Shown: positions 6,695-58,154, numbered from the stretch's first letter. The stretch is DNA of 64,000 nt from an uncultured Flavobacteriaceae bacterium (GCA_905181625.1 CAJIYJ010000007.1:1-64000); one strand, 5' to 3'. Numbers and translations are program-made. Notes: generated by a model not told the origin, from the letters alone.

Positions 6695-8170
6695 TTAAAT
6701 TTTTCTTTCTAATTTTTCTTTCCAAGTATTATAAGCATCAATATATTTTTGACATTTACTTTCTGGCTCAAAAGATTTAATATAGTCACCCTTTGAAAAT
6801 TCTTTACTATAGGATTTAAAATCCTGATTTTTAACCCCTACTGACCTAGCTGCTCCATAAGCACCTGAAACATTATGAATTTCTATTTCATTCTTTAGAA
6901 GTGTTGAAATAGTAGTTGAAAATACTTCAGATTGAAATAAATTGTCATTATCTGCTCTTATTAATGAAGGAATCAAATTGTCATTTTTTAAAAGTTCCAT
7001 CCCATACACAAAAGAAAAGGCAATCCCTTCTAAAGTAGCCCTAAAAAGATGATCATTACTATGAATAGTGGAATCATAGTTTATAATATGAGATCCAATA
7101 TCTTTATTATTAAACATTCTTTCAGCTCCATTTCCAAAAGGCAGTACAACTAAACCTGAACTACCTACATTGATAGATGAGGCTTTCTGGTTCATTAAGT
7201 TATAAGATTTTGAATTAGTTGAGTTTTTTAATTTTTTATACTGAATACCAGCTCCATTAATGCAAAGCAACTTACCAATAATTGGATTTTTTATAGAATA
7301 ATTAACATGTGCAAAGCTATTAATCTTTAAAGATACTTTAGAAATAACTTGATCTGTTATAGCATATAAAACTCCCGAAGTCCCTCCACTAGCTGCAACT
7401 TCTCCTGAATTTAGTACATTAAGAGAAAAAGCATTGTTTGGCTGATCGCCTGCTCTATACATGATTGGTATCCCTTTAGGTAGATTCGATTGCTCAGAAG
7501 CTAATCCATTTACAATTCCTTGATTTGTAAAATTGTCTATTATGTCAGGTACTAAAGATGGGTCTATGTCAAAATATTCTAAAAACCAATTAGCAATATT
7601 ATTATCTTTAAAATCCCAAAACATTCCTTCGGACAATCCTCCAATTGTAGTATTAATCTCACCTGTTAATTTATAAGCTAAATAATCTCCAGGAAGCATG
7701 AATTTATCTATCTTATTATAAATGTCAGGTTCATTTAACTTAACCCATGCTAGTTTAGATGCAGTGAAATTTCCTGGAGAATTTAATAAATGAGATTCGC
7801 ACTTGTCATTTCCTAAATAATCATAAGCTTTGTTTCCAATTTCTACAGCTCTGCTGTCACACCATATAATAGATTTTCTTAAACTATTCCCAACCTTATC
7901 AACTAAAACAAGACCATGCATTTGATAAGAAATTCCTATTCCTAGTATTTGAGATGAATTTATATTGTTTTTATCGATAATTCTTTTTGTTCCTGTGCAT
8001 AAACATTTCCACCAAAAATCAGGATCTTGCTCAGCCCAACCTGGGTTTAAAGAAATAATTTCCATTTCGGTTGAAGGCTCATTAATTATATCTATTTTTT
8101 TTCCTGATTCAGAGTAAACCAAAGCTATTTTTAAAGATGAACTACCTAAATCATAGCCTATATAATACAT
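6695..8170 (-). CDS. xylB: Xylulokinase
   Basis: FGGY-family sugar kinase, 491 residues, phosphorylating D-xylulose to xylulose 5-phosphate, the step after XylA. Visible motifs: the N-terminal ATP phosphate loop [13 protein letters not shown] (4-16), the substrate-side [13 protein letters not shown] (about 83-95), the catalytic-Asp region [11 protein letters not shown], and a C-terminal [10 protein letters not shown] nucleotide-binding segment. It is the first gene of the minus-strand run xylB, xylA, hydroxylase, DUF1080, oxidoreductase. The 126 bases up to tRNA-Arg hold its promoter and are very AT-rich, with the short palindrome ACATATGT near 8223. The adjacency to xylA makes the substrate assignment firm. 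Confidence 0.96.
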
Positions 8171-8296: not shown

Positions 8297-8373
8297 GGTC
8301 GCGTAGCTCAGCTGGATAGAGCATCTGCCTTCTAAGCAGACGGTCACACGTTCGAATCGTGTCGCGATCACCA
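8297..8373 (+). tRNA. tRNA-Arg (anticodon TCT)
   Basis: Complete cloverleaf: acceptor GGTCGCG pairs with CGCGATC, D arm GCTC/GAGC, anticodon stem TCTGC/GCAGA around loop CTTCTAA (anticodon TCT), T arm ACACG-TTCGAAT-CGTGT, discriminator A at 8370 and an encoded CCA at 8371-8373. It decodes AGA, a common Arg codon in this AT-rich genome. I saw no second copy of its 3' end nearby that would mark an integrated element. Confidence 0.97.
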
Positions 8374-8592: not shown

Positions 8593-8630
8593 AACGTCTC
8601 TAATTAACTTTAGGGACGTTTTTATTTTTT
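8593..8630 (+). terminator. Hairpin with T tract, orphan terminator-like
   Basis: AACGTCTCT (8593-8601) pairs with AGGGACGTT (8612-8620) with one G-T pair, followed by T-rich 8619-8630. The shape is a plus-strand intrinsic terminator, but no plus-strand gene ends just before it. It immediately precedes the first copy of the accessory-region repeat. Confidence 0.5.
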
Positions 8631-8631
8631 A

Positions 8632-8675
8632 CCATAGGTATATCTTCTTTTTTTAATTCAGGAATACTTAAATTA
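8632..8675. repeat. Accessory-region repeat, copy A
   Basis: Starts CCATAGGTATATCTTC and contains TTAATTCAGGAAT. It is closest to copy D at 11303 (shared CCATAG, TCTTCTTTT, AATTC and AAT blocks in the same order). It ends about 6 bases before the GTG start of the DUF983 gene. Confidence 0.55.
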
Positions 8676-8680
8676 GATGA

Positions 8681-9055
8681 GTGAATAAATTAAATAGTAT
8701 TTTAAAAAATAAATGCCCTAAATGTGGAAATGGTGATTTTTTTATTAATGGAAATCCATACTTAAATATTTTATTTCACAACGGAAATTGTCATAAAAAT
8801 TGTTCTTCTTGTGACTTGAAATACGAATTAGAACCAGGGTTTTTTTACGGAGCGATGTATGTTAGTTATGCTTTAGCTATTGGCTTAGGCTGTTTTCTTT
8901 TAATTCTATTTATAAGCATTCTAGGTAAAGAAGATGTTTTAATTCTAATTGCCATAATAGGTATTAGTATTTTGATTTTTTCACCAATAAACTATTACTT
9001 ATCAAGATTGCTGTGGATTAATATATTTATTGATAAAAACCACCCTAAACCCTAG
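8681..9055 (+). CDS. DUF983 family zinc-ribbon membrane protein
   Basis: 124 residues. The N-terminal half has paired cysteines: CPKCG (12-16) and a second C-x(n)-CSSC cluster near 37-44, suggesting a small zinc ribbon. Then comes the family signature ELEPGFFYGAMYVSYALAIG (about 51-70) and two hydrophobic segments (about 63-84 and 87-108). The start is GTG at 8681; the ATG at 8677 hits a stop after three codons in its own frame. Function is not established for the family. The stop codon TAG is embedded in repeat copy B (CCCTAG). It has no obvious relation to the neighbouring glycan genes. Confidence 0.88.
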   Translation: MNKLNSILKNKCPKCGNGDFFINGNPYLNILFHNGNCHKNCSSCDLKYELEPGFFYGAMYVSYALAIGLGCFLLILFISILGKEDVLILIAIIGISILIFSPINYYLSRLLWINIFIDKNHPKP

Positions 9056-9193
9056 GCATATCAGATTCTGTCAATTCAGCAACTTCTAATCCTCATAAGT
9101 AGATTGAACAAGCTACAATCGTCCAGTACTATACAACAACATAGTCCTCTATAAAGGGATTAGATTAGTAAGGATTAGATAATTATTATATTA
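9051..9193. repeat. Accessory-region repeat, copy B (long form)
   Basis: Left block CCTAGGCATATC...GTCAATTCAGCAACTT (9051-9084) matches copy C almost exactly. Right block 9147-9193 (CTCTATAAAGG, then GATTAG-rich, then TATATTA) matches the right block of copy C. The ~60 bases between are unique to this copy. A 9-base inverted pair TCTAATCCT (9085-9093) / AGGATTAGA (9171-9179) could fold it. It spans the stop codon of the DUF983 gene and ends just before the GH18 start. Confidence 0.7.
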
Positions 9194-9197
9194 GAGG

Positions 9198-10265
9198 ATG
9201 AAAAAATTAATTCTACTATTACTATTTATTTTATCCTGTAGCAACAACACAGAAATAAAACCTCAAGTCATAGCTTATTATGCTGGTGATGAAAAATCAA
9301 TTGATGAATTTAATTTAGATGGAGTTGATCAAATAATATATAGTTTTTTACATCTTAAAGGAAATAAATTAGCAATTGACAACAAAACAGATAGTCTTAC
9401 TTTAATAAATGTTGTTAATCAAAAAAATAAATATCCAAAATTAAAAGTTCTAGTTTCTTTAGGCGGTTGGGGTGGATGTGAAACATGCTCTGATGTTTTT
9501 AGTTCAAAAGAAGCTAGAATGGAATTTGCAATTTCTACAGCTGATATTATAGAATCCTTTAATGCAGACGGTATTGATCTTGATTGGGAATATCCAGGAA
9601 TCTCTGGATTCCCAGGGCACAGTTACAAACCTGAAGATAGAGAAAACTTTACAGAATTATTGATTCAATTAAGAAGATATATGAAAAAAGAGGATATATT
9701 AAGTTTTGCTGCTGGTGCATCTAATAGATTTTTTAAAAATTCAATTGAATGGGATAAAGTAATGCCATTAGTTAATAATGTCAATCTTATGACCTATGAT
9801 TTTTATGGATCAGGTTCTACTAAAACAGGTCATCATACTGCTCTTTCATCTAGTGAATTTCAAGATAGATCTGCAAAGTCATCAATTGAAGCATTAATAA
9901 ATTTAGGTGTAAATCCTAAACAAATATTTATTGGTGGTGCTTTTTATATTAAAACATTTAAAAATGTTGAAAATATTAATAATGGTCTTAATCAAAACAC
10001 TGAATGGAATAAAAGCTACAACCAAATAAATTTTGAAGATGTAAGATCTAATTTTAGTTTTTATTGGGATAGTTTAGCGAATTCACCTTACGCATATGAT
10101 AGTATTAACAAGATTTTTGCCACTTTTGATGATCATAAATCAATAAAGCTTAAATCTAAATACGCATTAGAAAAAAAATTAGGTGGAATTATGTTTTGGC
10201 AGTTAATGAATGATAAGAAACAAAACGGTTTATTAAAAACTATGGTTAATACAATTAAACCATAG
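9198..10265 (+). CDS. GH18 family glycoside hydrolase (chitinase-like) lipoprotein
   Basis: 355 residues. Lipoprotein signal with lipobox ILSC (Cys14), so probably anchored to the outer membrane or exposed on the surface. The GH18 barrel signatures are clear: LKVLVSLGGWGG (82-93) and DGIDLDWEYP (124-133) with catalytic Glu131, plus NLMTYDFYGSG around 196-206 and GGIMFWQLMND near the C-terminus. The DxxDxDxE motif is intact, so it should be active, most likely on chitin or a related GlcNAc polymer. No carbohydrate-binding module or secretion tail is present. The DNA of its first 11 codons closely resembles that of the CIA30 gene and the SGNH pseudogene. Its stop TAG lies inside repeat copy C. 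Confidence 0.92.
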   Translation: MKKLILLLLFILSCSNNTEIKPQVIAYYAGDEKSIDEFNLDGVDQIIYSFLHLKGNKLAIDNKTDSLTLINVVNQKNKYPKLKVLVSLGGWGGCETCSDVFSSKEARMEFAISTADIIESFNADGIDLDWEYPGISGFPGHSYKPEDRENFTELLIQLRRYMKKEDILSFAAGASNRFFKNSIEWDKVMPLVNNVNLMTYDFYGSGSTKTGHHTALSSSEFQDRSAKSSIEALINLGVNPKQIFIGGAFYIKTFKNVENINNGLNQNTEWNKSYNQINFEDVRSNFSFYWDSLANSPYAYDSINKIFATFDDHKSIKLKSKYALEKKLGGIMFWQLMNDKKQNGLLKTMVNTIKP

Positions 10266-10356
10266 GCATATCCTCAATTGTCAATTCAGCAACTTAAAGA
10301 AAACATAACTCTATAAAGGAAATAGATTAATAAAGTTTAGATAATGACTATATTTA
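10260..10356. repeat. Accessory-region repeat, copy C
   Basis: Left block CCATAGGCATATCC...GTCAATTCAGCAACTT (10260-10296) and right block beginning CTCTATAAAGG at 10309 and ending TATATTTA (10349-10356). The right block contains a near-consensus -7 element (TATATTTA), so this repeat probably carries the promoter of the CIA30 gene. It overlaps the stop codon of the GH18 gene. Confidence 0.7.
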
Positions 10357-10360
10357 GTTT

Positions 10361-10924
10361 GTGAGAAAACTAATATTACTATTTATTCCACTTGTTTCTT
10401 TTTCCCAAACCTTTGAATTAACAAATGGTCAAAGTATTGATTTAATTAACCCTAAAAAAAATGTTGGTATAAAAAATTGGAATATTGTTAATGATGATGT
10501 TATGGGTGGAGTTTCCATATCTTACCTATCAATAAATGATGAAAATAATTTGATTTTTAGGGGATATTTATCTCTAGAAAATAACGGAGGATTTGCCTCA
10601 TCAAGATTAAGTTTTACTAAAGAAACCTTAACTGGAGTTAAATCTTTTAAAATAAAATTCAAGGGAGATGGCAATACTTATAAACTACGACTTAGACAAA
10701 ACAACAGACGTGCCTCTTATTCTTGTGATTTTAAATCTTTCAAAGATAAATGGATTGAAGTGAATATTCAGATAGAGGATTTTAAACCCTCGTGGCGAGG
10801 TTATTCTTACTCCAATTATCCTGCTTTGGATATCAAAGAAATAAATTCATTGGGTTTACAAATTTCTGACAAACAAGAAGGGGAATTCAAATTAGAAATA
10901 AAATATATTAAAGCAATCTATTAA
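10361..10924 (+). CDS. CIA30 family protein, secreted
   Basis: 187 residues with a Sec signal peptide (1-15, ending SFSQ). The CIA30 (complex I intermediate-associated protein 30) fold is recognisable from WNIVNDDVMGGVS (about 40-52) and LENNGGFASSRLSF (about 72-85), with the later KIKFKGDGNTYKLRLRQ strand. Bacterial members are jelly-roll proteins of unknown function, often near carbohydrate or redox genes. The start is GTG at 10361. A degenerate SGNH hydrolase begins 4 bases after the stop, so the two were probably one transcript. The first codons nearly duplicate those of its neighbours at DNA level. Confidence 0.88.
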   Translation: MRKLILLFIPLVSFSQTFELTNGQSIDLINPKKNVGIKNWNIVNDDVMGGVSISYLSINDENNLIFRGYLSLENNGGFASSRLSFTKETLTGVKSFKIKFKGDGNTYKLRLRQNNRRASYSCDFKSFKDKWIEVNIQIEDFKPSWRGYSYSNYPALDIKEINSLGLQISDKQEGEFKLEIKYIKAIY

Positions 10925-10928
10925 TAAA

Positions 10929-11254
10929 ATGAAAAAACTAATTCTATTATTATTTATGCCACTTTTAACAACTGGACAGAACAATTCGTTAGTGTCAAGT
11001 GAAATAAAATATTATGGAAAAGATTTTTTAGACTTGAAGGAACCGTAATTCCTGATTCAGTTAAGGAAAATCGTTACGATAGATTGCCTTTTTCATATAA
11101 AAATATTTTTTATATAGACAGTAAAAATGCATTAGGACTTGACCAAGAAGGAACGGTAGATTGAGTTCATTTTAATGATTTAGGTTTTATGAGATATGCA
11201 GACTTTTTAATAGAAAAGTTTGAAGAATTTGAATTAATAGATGTTAAAAAATAA
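10929..11254 (+). pseudogene. Degraded SGNH/GDSL hydrolase (acetylxylan-esterase-like)
   Basis: Starts with an intact signal peptide (MKKLILLLFMPLL) and a plausible N-terminus to YYGKDFLDLKEP, then stops. Shifted by one frame it continues EGTVIPDSVKENRY...LPFSYKNIFYIDSKNALGL and ends in the family's catalytic Asp-x-x-His block, D-stop-VHFNDLGFMRYADFL, where the residue between Asp and Val is now a TGA (11162-11164). Intact family members have ~200 or more residues, so the central part including the GDS serine block is deleted. One frameshift, one nonsense codon and one large deletion make it a clear pseudogene. It follows the CIA30 gene by 4 bases. Confidence 0.75.
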
Positions 11255-11257
11255 TCA

Positions 11258-11282
11258 GAAAAGACAAGTCTTTTCATTTTTG
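11258..11282 (+). terminator. Intrinsic terminator after the SGNH pseudogene
   Basis: GAAAAGAC (11258-11265) and GTCTTTTC (11268-11275) form a perfect 8-base stem with a 2-base loop, followed by ATTTTTG. It sits directly after the old stop codon, so it ends the CIA30-SGNH transcript. Confidence 0.6.
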
Positions 11283-11302
11283 TTAAAGTTTTACAATTCT
11301 AA

Positions 11303-11346
11303 ACCATAGACATACTATCTTCTTTTAATTCTGCAATTTTGTAATT
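11303..11346. repeat. Accessory-region repeat, copy D
   Basis: CCATAGACATACTATCTTCT followed by TTAATTCTGCAAT. Same block order as copies A-C, closest to A. It lies 41 bases before the VF530 start and outside any intact gene. Confidence 0.55.
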
Positions 11347-11351
11347 CCTTT

Positions 11352-11382
11352 TTTAATTTTCGTAAGCATTTAATTATATTTG
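11352..11382 (+). promoter_or_regulatory. Promoter of the VF530 gene
   Basis: TTTA (11352-11355), 19 bases, then an exact TATATTTG (11375-11382). The ATG of the gene is only 4 bases past the -7 box, so the transcript would be leaderless or nearly so. Confidence 0.6.
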
Positions 11383-11386
11383 AATA

Positions 11387-11608
11387 ATGAGTGGACAACA
11401 ACTTAACAATCCTTTACATGGAATAAAATTAGCTACCATGTTAGAACAATTATTTCTAGAATATGGCTGGGAAGAATTAGGAAACACTTTAAATATCAAT
11501 GCATTTAAAAACAATCCTACTTATAAATCGAGTTTAAAATTCTTAAGAACCACCCCTTGGGCAAGAAAAAAAGTAGAGAATTTATATTTAAAAAATATGA
11601 TAGATTAG
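11387..11608 (+). CDS. VF530 family DNA-binding protein (DUF2132)
   Basis: 73 residues, full length for the family. The signature [22 protein letters not shown] is followed by [28 protein letters not shown], nearly the consensus. VF530 proteins are small helical proteins named from a Vibrio structure and thought to bind DNA; a cellular role is not established. It has its own probable promoter (TATATTTG just before the start) and stands alone after repeat copy D. Confidence 0.92.
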
Positions 11609-11793: not shown

Positions 11794-12180
11794 ATGAGAG
11801 AACAAAAAAAACAAATGAAAATTATGCTGGCATGGACATTAGCATGGGTAGTAAGTTTAGGTATTTTAACAGGTGCAGAAAACTCACTTTGGGATAATAA
11901 TATATATACTATAATAGGGTTAATAATAAATTTTGCTATTGGAATAGGTATGATAATCGCTAATAAAAATTTATTTAAGACTTATGACGAATTACAAAAG
12001 AGAATTCAATTTGAAGCAATGGCAATTACATTGGGATTAACTGTAGTTGTTGGTCTTACATATGAGGTCTCTTTTGATTTTGGAATTATTGGTAAGGAAC
12101 CTGAATTCGAATATCTAATGATGTTTATTTCTCTTTCATATGTTGTTGCCAATTTCGTTAATTCAAGAAGATTTCGATGA
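11794..12180 (+). CDS. Four-helix membrane protein of unknown function, paired with XRE regulator
   Basis: 128 residues with four hydrophobic segments (about 11-28, 35-56, 72-92, 102-121) and a short charged N-terminus and C-terminus. Proteins of this type are commonly encoded directly before a small XRE-family regulator in Bacteroidota and Firmicutes, but I know of no established function. Its stop overlaps the start of the regulator (ATGA, 12177-12180), so translation is probably coupled. The composite operator 23 bases upstream suggests tight control of the pair. Confidence 0.82.
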   Translation: MREQKKQMKIMLAWTLAWVVSLGILTGAENSLWDNNIYTIIGLIINFAIGIGMIIANKNLFKTYDELQKRIQFEAMAITLGLTVVVGLTYEVSFDFGIIGKEPEFEYLMMFISLSYVVANFVNSRRFR

Positions 12181-12371
12181 AAAATAAAGTTAAAGAGTTA
12201 AGGAAAAATCAAAAATTGACACAAGAAGAATTAGCAAACTTAATTGGTATATCACGTCAAGCTATAAATGCTATTGAAAAGGAAAAGTTCGACCCAAGTT
12301 TACCAACAGCGTTTAAAATGGCTAATCTATTTAAAACAACAGTTGAAGACCTTTTTATATTTAACAAATAG
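12177..12371 (+). CDS. Small XRE-family helix-turn-helix transcriptional regulator
   Basis: 64 residues, almost entirely one HTH domain: VKELRKNQKLTQEELANLIG (helices 1-2), then ISRQAINAIEKEKFDPSLPT (recognition helix about 26-35) and a C-terminal FKTTVEDLFIF helix. This matches the YozG/Cro-like minimal XRE regulators. It overlaps the preceding membrane-protein gene by 4 bases. I infer that it binds the TTTACA/TGTAAA half-sites in front of its own operon. Confidence 0.93.
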   Translation: MKNKVKELRKNQKLTQEELANLIGISRQAINAIEKEKFDPSLPTAFKMANLFKTTVEDLFIFNK

Positions 12372-57857: not shown

Positions 57858-58033
57858 ACTCTTCCTTTTAGAGCGTTAAAAGCCCAGCCTATTGCAATAA
57901 AACCGGTCCCTACTACACAAAATCCTATAGCATAGTCTTGATACTTAATTGCTCCTAACAAAACTAGAGCAATCCCTAGAAGAGTTAAAACAAAAGAAGC
58001 AATTCCAAAAATTCCATTTTTATTTAATTTCAT
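57854..58033 (-). CDS. CAL67264-type small membrane protein, 59 residues
   Basis: ATG at the complement of 58031-58033, stop at 57854-57856, overlapping the fumC TAA by two bases. Two hydrophobic helices (about 8-28 and 33-50) and the family ending [15 protein letters not shown]. This ending identifies the small flavobacterial membrane protein family named after a Gramella gene. Function unknown. An AAGGA ribosome-binding site lies 4 bases before the start, and directly upstream of that is the 10-base tandem repeat, so the leader of this gene is made of repeats. Confidence 0.85.
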
Positions 58034-58040
58034 AATCCTT

Positions 58041-58105
58041 AGTTGTTGTTAGTTGTTGTTAGTTGTTGTTAGTTGTTGTTAGTTGTTGTTAGTTGTTGTT
58101 AGTTG
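58041..58105. repeat. 10-bp tandem repeat, 6.5 copies
   Basis: Six perfect copies of AGTTGTTGTT (58041-58100) plus AGTTG. Read on the minus strand it is (AACAACAACT)n ending 7 bases before the ATG of the CAL67264-type gene, immediately before its AAGGA. The unit length equals one DNA helical turn. It also lies downstream of the CPBP protease gene on that strand. Confidence 0.98.
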
Positions 58106-58154
58106 CAATGTCTTAATAAAAAATAAATGAATATGTTAAAAAACATATAAAAAT

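Follow-up and report, generated by a model that had tools for sequence, protein, structure and literature searches.

Short repeats ahead of accessory genes in a flavobacterial genome are likely recombination sites formed by the 3' end of a tyrosine-recombinase gene

A 64,000-nucleotide stretch of DNA from an uncultured Flavobacteriaceae bacterium (GCA_905181625.1, CAJIYJ010000007.1, positions 1 to 64000; hereafter the window) carries four related repeats, A to D, each of which precedes an accessory gene. On the opposite strand, the repeat corresponds to the terminal codons of a tyrosine-recombinase gene (…TYLRGLEVAELTEEDMPMV*), beginning in the region of the catalytic tyrosine and including the stop codon. 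Comparison of sequences makes it likely that the repeat is the att site of this tyrosine recombinase, and that the segment of the window in which the repeats lie is an integrase-less remnant of a gene-cassette array.

Repeat finding in the window recovered all four copies without prompting and in register, at 8628, 9046, 10256 and 11300, with 65-83% identity to the reference copy, and the four segments thus form one family, as the first-pass annotation had proposed. A 34-base pattern with up to three mismatches matched A, B and C, with 0 matches expected from 100 dinucleotide shuffles, and CCATAGRCATA with one mismatch was matched 8 times against 1.4 expected; the repeats are real and far above chance expectation. 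The block layout described earlier for the copies was recovered except in its details, as B opens with CCCTAG, D starts at 11304, and the family, with a length of about 30-80 nt, is longer than the blocks. In the whole source genome (1.86 Mb in 8 contigs, 90.6% complete), an exact pattern occurred at 6 places and a reversed control pattern at none, and a sequence-only profile detected about 20 copies at E<1e-3. The profile scores of the window copies (A, 4.8e-12; B, 4.8e-19; C, 8.9e-13; D, 2.5e-11) are partly circular because A to D are among the sequences from which the profile was built, while copies outside the building set have scores free of this circularity.

A lack of copies elsewhere, which would have counted against the first-pass proposal, was not observed, and the family is not confined to this genome. 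Among 21 further genomes of the same genus, 18 carried copies, with a maximum of 18 in one genome, but copies were found in only two of 18 genomes from other genera, namely G030, in which the match was weak (4.6e-4), and G034. Most of the compared genomes are metagenome-assembled and fragmented, and genes were called as long open reading frames. In the source genome, 15 of 19 copies and 6 of 10 clusters (P=1.7e-4) were located within 12 kb of contig ends, a zone that makes up 10% of the genome; such crowding would be expected of arrays that vary from strain to strain and interrupt the assembly.

The G034 match forms the 3' end of an open reading frame of 354 aa with a Phage_integrase domain (PF00589, E=1.7e-11). 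Homologues of this integrase were found at 26 loci in genome contigs, and 7 out of 200 genomes from the family contained them. Fifteen full-length homologues, with 40-59% identity to the G034 protein, retain the catalytic residues. R214, K242, Y302/R305, H328 and Y337 are invariant columns among these 15 proteins, in agreement with the Phage_integrase pattern R-K-(H/Y)xxR-H-Y, and the Y337 region aligns beside the tyrosine of an archaeal Xer structure. LTYLRGLE..L..DMP, which includes the catalytic tyrosine within LTYLRGLE and the tail motif DMP, is likewise invariant. Sequence comparison showed that the repeat comprises the last ~20-25 integrase codons and the stop, antisense to the cassette genes; the copies translate antisense and in register as ..YLRGLEVAEL[TK]EEDMPMV*, with most of the reading frame beyond missing. 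The first-pass suggestion that the repeats are remains of a small non-coding mobile element was therefore wrong in a key respect, since a coding sequence ends in the repeat; no convincing terminal inverted repeats or hairpin, as expected of MITE/REP-type elements, could be found in it either. An AlphaFold model of the integrase (mean pLDDT 72.6, mostly above 80 in the N-terminal block and less sure in the catalytic domain) predicted an N-terminal arm-binding domain of three strands and one helix (E8-11, E17-23, E26-30 and H47-66).

The array copies displayed 80 synonymous changes where 56.8 +- 5.1 were expected, and they contained 17 stops where 27 were expected, a number inside the null range of 14-38; this is consistent with their origin from, or exchange with, integrase ends. 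Across distant integrases, synonymous conservation of the 3' end was not clearly raised (0.538 v 0.487), so that a DNA-level site is not readable from it.

A scan of the integrase loci and of the richest contigs of the genus yielded 157 copies. In about half of the tested intact integrase genes, which are found in related marine genomes, the 3' end was the first repeat of a co-oriented array with units of 0.3-1.6 kb. At locus L144 (genome G224), for example, repeats at 7546, 8967, 9884 and 10630 are followed by an integrase gene on the opposite strand, of which the last repeat is the 3' end. Full-length integrases with an array of this kind were also identified at L143, L098, L099 and L093, and arrays with a truncated or frame-shifted integrase at L108, L106 and L096. 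No array was detectable in about 10 kb around the intact integrases of L089, L091, L092, L100, L101, L103 and L104, and the divergent freshwater integrases of L103, L104, L107 and L110 had no self-repeats above shuffles.

The arrays are regular in their layout. Between repeats there is mostly one gene, sometimes two, pointing towards the integrase, and the nearest open reading frame was co-oriented with the repeat in a ratio of 122:21 upstream and 94:26 downstream. In 69 of 144 copies a stop codon fell between -12 and +5 relative to the repeat start, as against 1.3% of random points, and the commonest embedded stops were the TAA of cTAAACC (39 copies) and the TAG of AAACCATAG (13 copies, with proteins ending in KP). 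Copies elsewhere are often placed at gene ends as well, and the earlier observation that repeats B and C contain the stop codon of the preceding gene is one instance of an array-wide rule.

The array of the window is arranged as A-DUF983-B-GH18-C-CIA30 with a decayed frame-D-VF530, with all features on the plus strand, directly behind a tRNA-Arg(TCT) gene (8297..8373). Repeat A (8627..8688), a degenerate copy of the proposed att site, has a right arm (..TTTTTAATTCAGGAATACTT) that moves together with the DUF983 gene (8681..9055, PF06170), the first cassette gene, whose stop codon TAG is inside repeat B (AAACCCTAG). Repeat B (9045..9119) is near full length and translates on the minus strand as VAELTESDMPRV*. 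It is followed by the first copy of a second block (9147..9192), of the right-arm type CTATAAAGGGA..TATATT, which is likely to be the start region of the GH18 glycosidase gene (9198..10265; PF00704, E=1.3e-61). The stop codon TAG of this second cassette gene is inside repeat C (10254..10332; minus-strand translation VAELTIEDMPMV*), and repeat finding placed the other copy of the second block at 10309..10354, 85% identical to the first, which bears out the reported sharing of this block by B and C; the same type was also found behind repeats in other genomes. The third cassette gene (10361..10924; PF08547, E=1.7e-39) encodes a CIA30 domain and a shared signal peptide. The tail of its unit (10929..11254) is a decayed reading frame that begins with MKKLILLLFMPLLTTGQ and has internal stops, and no open reading frame of at least 50 aa is listed there. 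Repeat D (11298..11362; minus-strand translation IAELKEDSMSMV*) precedes the last gene of the array, which encodes a VF530 domain (11387..11608; PF09905, E=1.3e-31) and is followed by no repeat. The labels originally given to the four genes were confirmed, as DUF983, Glyco_hydro_18, CIA30 and VF530 all scored above the Pfam cut-offs.

Comparison between genomes indicated that units move as wholes, with changed neighbours and boundaries that are sharp at the repeats. The DUF983 unit recurs with 80% identity in G015 (contig C3) and with 93% identity in G009 (contig C18), where the similarity starts in the middle of repeat A and stops in repeat B; behind this unit lies GH18 in the window and a decayed integrase in G009. 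In G007, a relative of the GH18 gene (87% identity) lacks a repeat, and its own stop is overlapped by the sulfatase-like gene that comes next; the similarity to the window stops at 10259, the base preceding CCATAG. A unit with a gene of about 100 aa is 94% identical from repeat to repeat between G007 (contig C2) and G008 (contig C17), with both flanks different. The unit adjoining the intact integrase of L098 recurs in G000 (contig C3), G017, G015, G012 and G011. In G019, the same xylulokinase and tRNA-Arg neighbours as in the window are followed by a different first unit and a repeat.

Between array loci of different genomes, similarity ended in repeats of both genomes in 37 of 239 cases (0.17 under the null, and never more than 3 in 1000 circular shifts) and in a repeat of either genome in 67 of 239 (null 12.8, maximum 31), although the null is a simple circular shift and part of the excess reflects the position of repeats at gene ends. 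The individual unit comparisons are better evidence than these statistics. Together with the integrase-led arrays, the recurring units and the similarity ends make well supported what had been offered as one of three possible meanings, namely that the repeats are recombination boundaries of gene cassettes.

Conservation across 152 copies was high over positions 1-33 of the repeat and had its peak around positions 10-17 (GGCATATC), a near-invariant sequence that encodes the integrase codons D-M-P. To its left, alternative arms were found, such as TTAGCAGGGGTTTTTATGTTT (three times in L106, with a similar one in L096) and ACATAATGGTATTTATATTTTA (L144 and L151), and to its right the arms belong to several recurring types, among them the integrase body and the second block. 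Strand exchange would probably occur at GGCATATC inside a 13-8-13 core of ~34 bp (AACTAAACCATAG-GCATATCT-TCTTCTTTTAATT), a proposal made because both sides change around this sequence and because the break between the DUF983 units of the window and G009 is located just to the right of it. The arms of the proposed core are weakly complementary or palindromic (7 of 11).

Frame-shifted or truncated integrases are found within arrays (L094, L096, L106 and L108), so that some of the repeats may have arisen by decay. In one alternative explanation, whole elements, each an integrase with its cargo, were inserted at the 3' ends of older integrase genes and the integrase bodies were later deleted; the sites would then remain att sites, yet single cassettes would not move in trans. 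The truncated and frame-shifted integrases inside or beside arrays and the longer integrase stump behind DUF983 in G009 are in keeping with this explanation, and tRNA islands are a known example of tandem insertion at a single site. We nevertheless regard it as unlikely, as deletion of a gene of about 1 kb should leave a broad range of remnants, whereas the integrase-like sequence to the right extended no further than ~84 nt in 110 of the 112 copies from the genus, although the gene is ~1065 nt long, which indicates a bounded repeat rather than a random gene stump. The right arms also form recurring types, and single-gene units recur intact between genomes beside new neighbours.

The repeats are co-oriented with the genes, A-T-rich right arms are located just ahead of start codons, and the second block is common to B and C, all of which would suit a shared regulatory leader or terminator that acts in transcription as a promoter, 5' leader or terminator and was duplicated ahead of accessory genes; a shared leader had also been considered in the first-pass annotation. 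As the main explanation this is very improbable, because the conserved edge keeps a constant position relative to the preceding stop codon and the repeat encodes the end of an integrase, and it leaves the similarity breaks and the arrays at integrases unexplained; a secondary role of this kind is possible for some right arms, such as the second block. Structured RNA or an Rfam element was rejected, as no Rfam match was obtained at the repeats in the window, and single-stranded DNA folding of the consensus and of seven copies gave no consistent structure (z -2.2 to +2.0) and no hairpin; both results also speak against a leader or terminator. Plain homologous recombination between dispersed dead-integrase repeats, with no site-specific enzyme acting now, might be read from the lack of an integrase in the source genome and from copies that are often >80% similar, enough for occasional exchange, but it is the least probable explanation of all, given that the shared stretches of 30-80 nt are short for efficiency, that arrays start at intact integrases in other genomes, and that the proximal units differ at the same place in G019 and G009.

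If the repeat is the att site of a tyrosine recombinase, the integrase would recombine the site that forms the end of its own gene with a partner site carried by a circular cassette, and one cassette would be gained, lost or moved per event. The swap would substitute the last codons of the integrase, and cassette sites would have to retain a workable C-terminus, while the right arm travelling with each cassette probably brings a promoter or start region. In this scheme, catalysis by the integrase, the circular intermediates, the exchange point and the promoter function of the right arms are all steps that we infer from sequence. No intact integrase was found in the assembled source genome, which has probably lost the gene or receives the integrase in trans. 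In the other genomes of the genus, integrase fragments but no intact gene were found, some of them at contig ends; as these genomes are fragmented, intact integrases may have been missed.

A phage origin of the repeat was rejected. An integrase search of viral contigs gave no match, and an exact 19-mer scan of them gave five matches; each was isolated, lay within or next to a coding region of an unrelated phage, and was accompanied by neither an array nor an integrase. Phage and plasmid records contained only partial integrase relatives of low identity (26-29% among the matches listed).

The proposed cassette arrays resemble integrons and CALINs in several respects. A tyrosine-recombinase gene adjoins a primary site and a co-oriented array of small cassettes, and a site is located at the 3' end of each cassette gene, as found at L144, L143, L098, L108, L106 and other loci. 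Integrase-less arrays exist in both, the window array being the counterpart of a CALIN, and the cassette genes are diverse, often secreted or unknown, with neighbours that vary between genomes. The components differ, however. The integron integrase model TIGR02249 gave at most 26 bits against a cut-off of 265 for three integrases and no match for a fourth. The attC pair RYYYAAC..GTTRRRY (R''/R') was present in 0 of 152 copies (0.5% in shuffled sequence), the flavobacterial sites lack the single-stranded DNA hairpin of attC, and the primary site lies within the coding 3' end of the integrase. The cassette genes converge on the integrase, whereas those of typical integrons point away from the integrase gene and those of Treponema share its direction (PMC3607928). 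An arm-binding domain, which simple recombinases (Xer, integron) do not have (PMC8138268), is predicted here. Identity with integrons was rejected on these grounds; the arrays seem integron-like in their working, which is separate from membership, and built from different parts.

In Xer/dif systems and dif-bounded modules, short sites flank small gene modules. The arrays described here share this feature, and the catalytic domain is distantly Xer-like, but the site is the end of the integrase gene itself rather than dif, and the predicted arm-binding domain again sets the enzyme apart. Orthology to XerC or XerD was rejected, as the scores were far below the cut-offs (NF040815, 36-42 bits v 220; XerC, 20-31 v 335; XerD, at most 20 v 330).

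The integrase is closest in predicted architecture to lambda-type and ICE/transposon integrases (lambda Int, Tn1549/Tn916 Int and IntCTnDOT), with which it shares the three-strand/one-helix N-terminus, the core-binding domain and the catalytic domain. The best fold matches of the predicted structure were lambda Int and Tn1549 Int, at 14-17% identity and TM-scores of ~0.5 from a model of middling confidence. Lambda-type and ICE integrases move one large element, and we know of none at the head of arrays of single-gene cassettes. No description of such a system was found in a search limited to the full text of open-access papers.

The textbook example of a system that gathers single-gene cassettes and changes their order is the integron. 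We give about even weight to a wider proposal, that marine Flavobacteriia possess a second, independently evolved cassette platform, with a lambda-type recombinase whose primary site is its own C-terminal coding sequence. Captures would rewrite the last codons, cassettes would carry a promoter arm, and the array would grow towards the integrase. The platform would have spread through marine Flavobacteriia, and the integrase-less arrays left behind would drive gene turnover at the strain level. If this is true, the same architecture has arisen from a different integrase and unrelated sites, so that the solution evolved more than once, and streamlined marine flavobacteria would have a mechanism by which their gene content varies. 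With the sequence of the site, cassettes can be located in any metagenome, and the integrase and its site are a single piece of DNA, which makes the idea directly testable.

Recombinase-driven variable islands are also formed in marine bacteria by tycheposons and tandem tRNA-site islands, the repeats of which are tRNA ends. The present arrays are similar to them in being variable islands in ocean bacteria, and the window array starts beside a tRNA-Arg gene, but its repeat is an integrase 3' end and its units are single genes.

A near-identical signal peptide, MKKLILLLLFIPLVSFGQ, opens many cassette genes whose mature domains are unrelated, including those starting at positions 9198 (GH18), 10361 (CIA30) and 10929 (a decayed reading frame) of the window and genes at the compared loci L021, L022, L025, L115, L125 and L132. 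The likeness extends to the DNA level, as if a module of promoter and signal peptide were common to, or swapped among, the cassette genes. In the array loci, 16 instances lie at most 250 nt after a repeat, vs 77 elsewhere, with the near-repeat share of the loci amounting to 3.3% of strand space. Further recurrent non-coding modules, AAATTATTGTAAATTGTA, ACCTCACTATTATACATACTTATACAAACAC and TCCAGTATTATACAACAACATAGTC, were observed downstream of repeats (L125, L127, L130, L132, L135 and L154; window 9101–9146), and these modules also occur without a detectable repeat.

At locus L044 (G010:C1:1–736), an integrase tail, ..MGHSSLNLSLNYLRGLEVAELKKED, stands at the contig start and continues in an unbroken reading frame into a glycosidase-like sequence of about 200 amino acids. 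This fusion, joined at the proposed point of exchange, may have arisen by recombination.

A similar two-gene unit, encoding a membrane protein and a helix-turn-helix (HTH) regulator, was found in two genera: at L144 (10019–10639) it is the cassette nearest the integrase, and at L161 (in G019, 2216–2820) it is the unit nearest tRNA-Arg. A gene pair of similar make-up, again a membrane-protein gene and an HTH gene, lies directly outside the array in the window (11794–12371).

The array regions of L118, L106, L099, L117 and L125 contain large, internally repetitive reading frames with short-period repeats, some of them MORN-like, and repetitive frames in array regions gave numerous overlapping inter-genome matches. 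The system is also carried on a contig filed under Rhodobacteraceae (L093, CALSPC010000003.1), which is probably mis-binned; its neighbours are flavobacterial-looking and close to those of L094. Elsewhere in the window, positions 58029–58108 hold a near-perfect tandem array with a 10-base period, TTAGTTGTTG.
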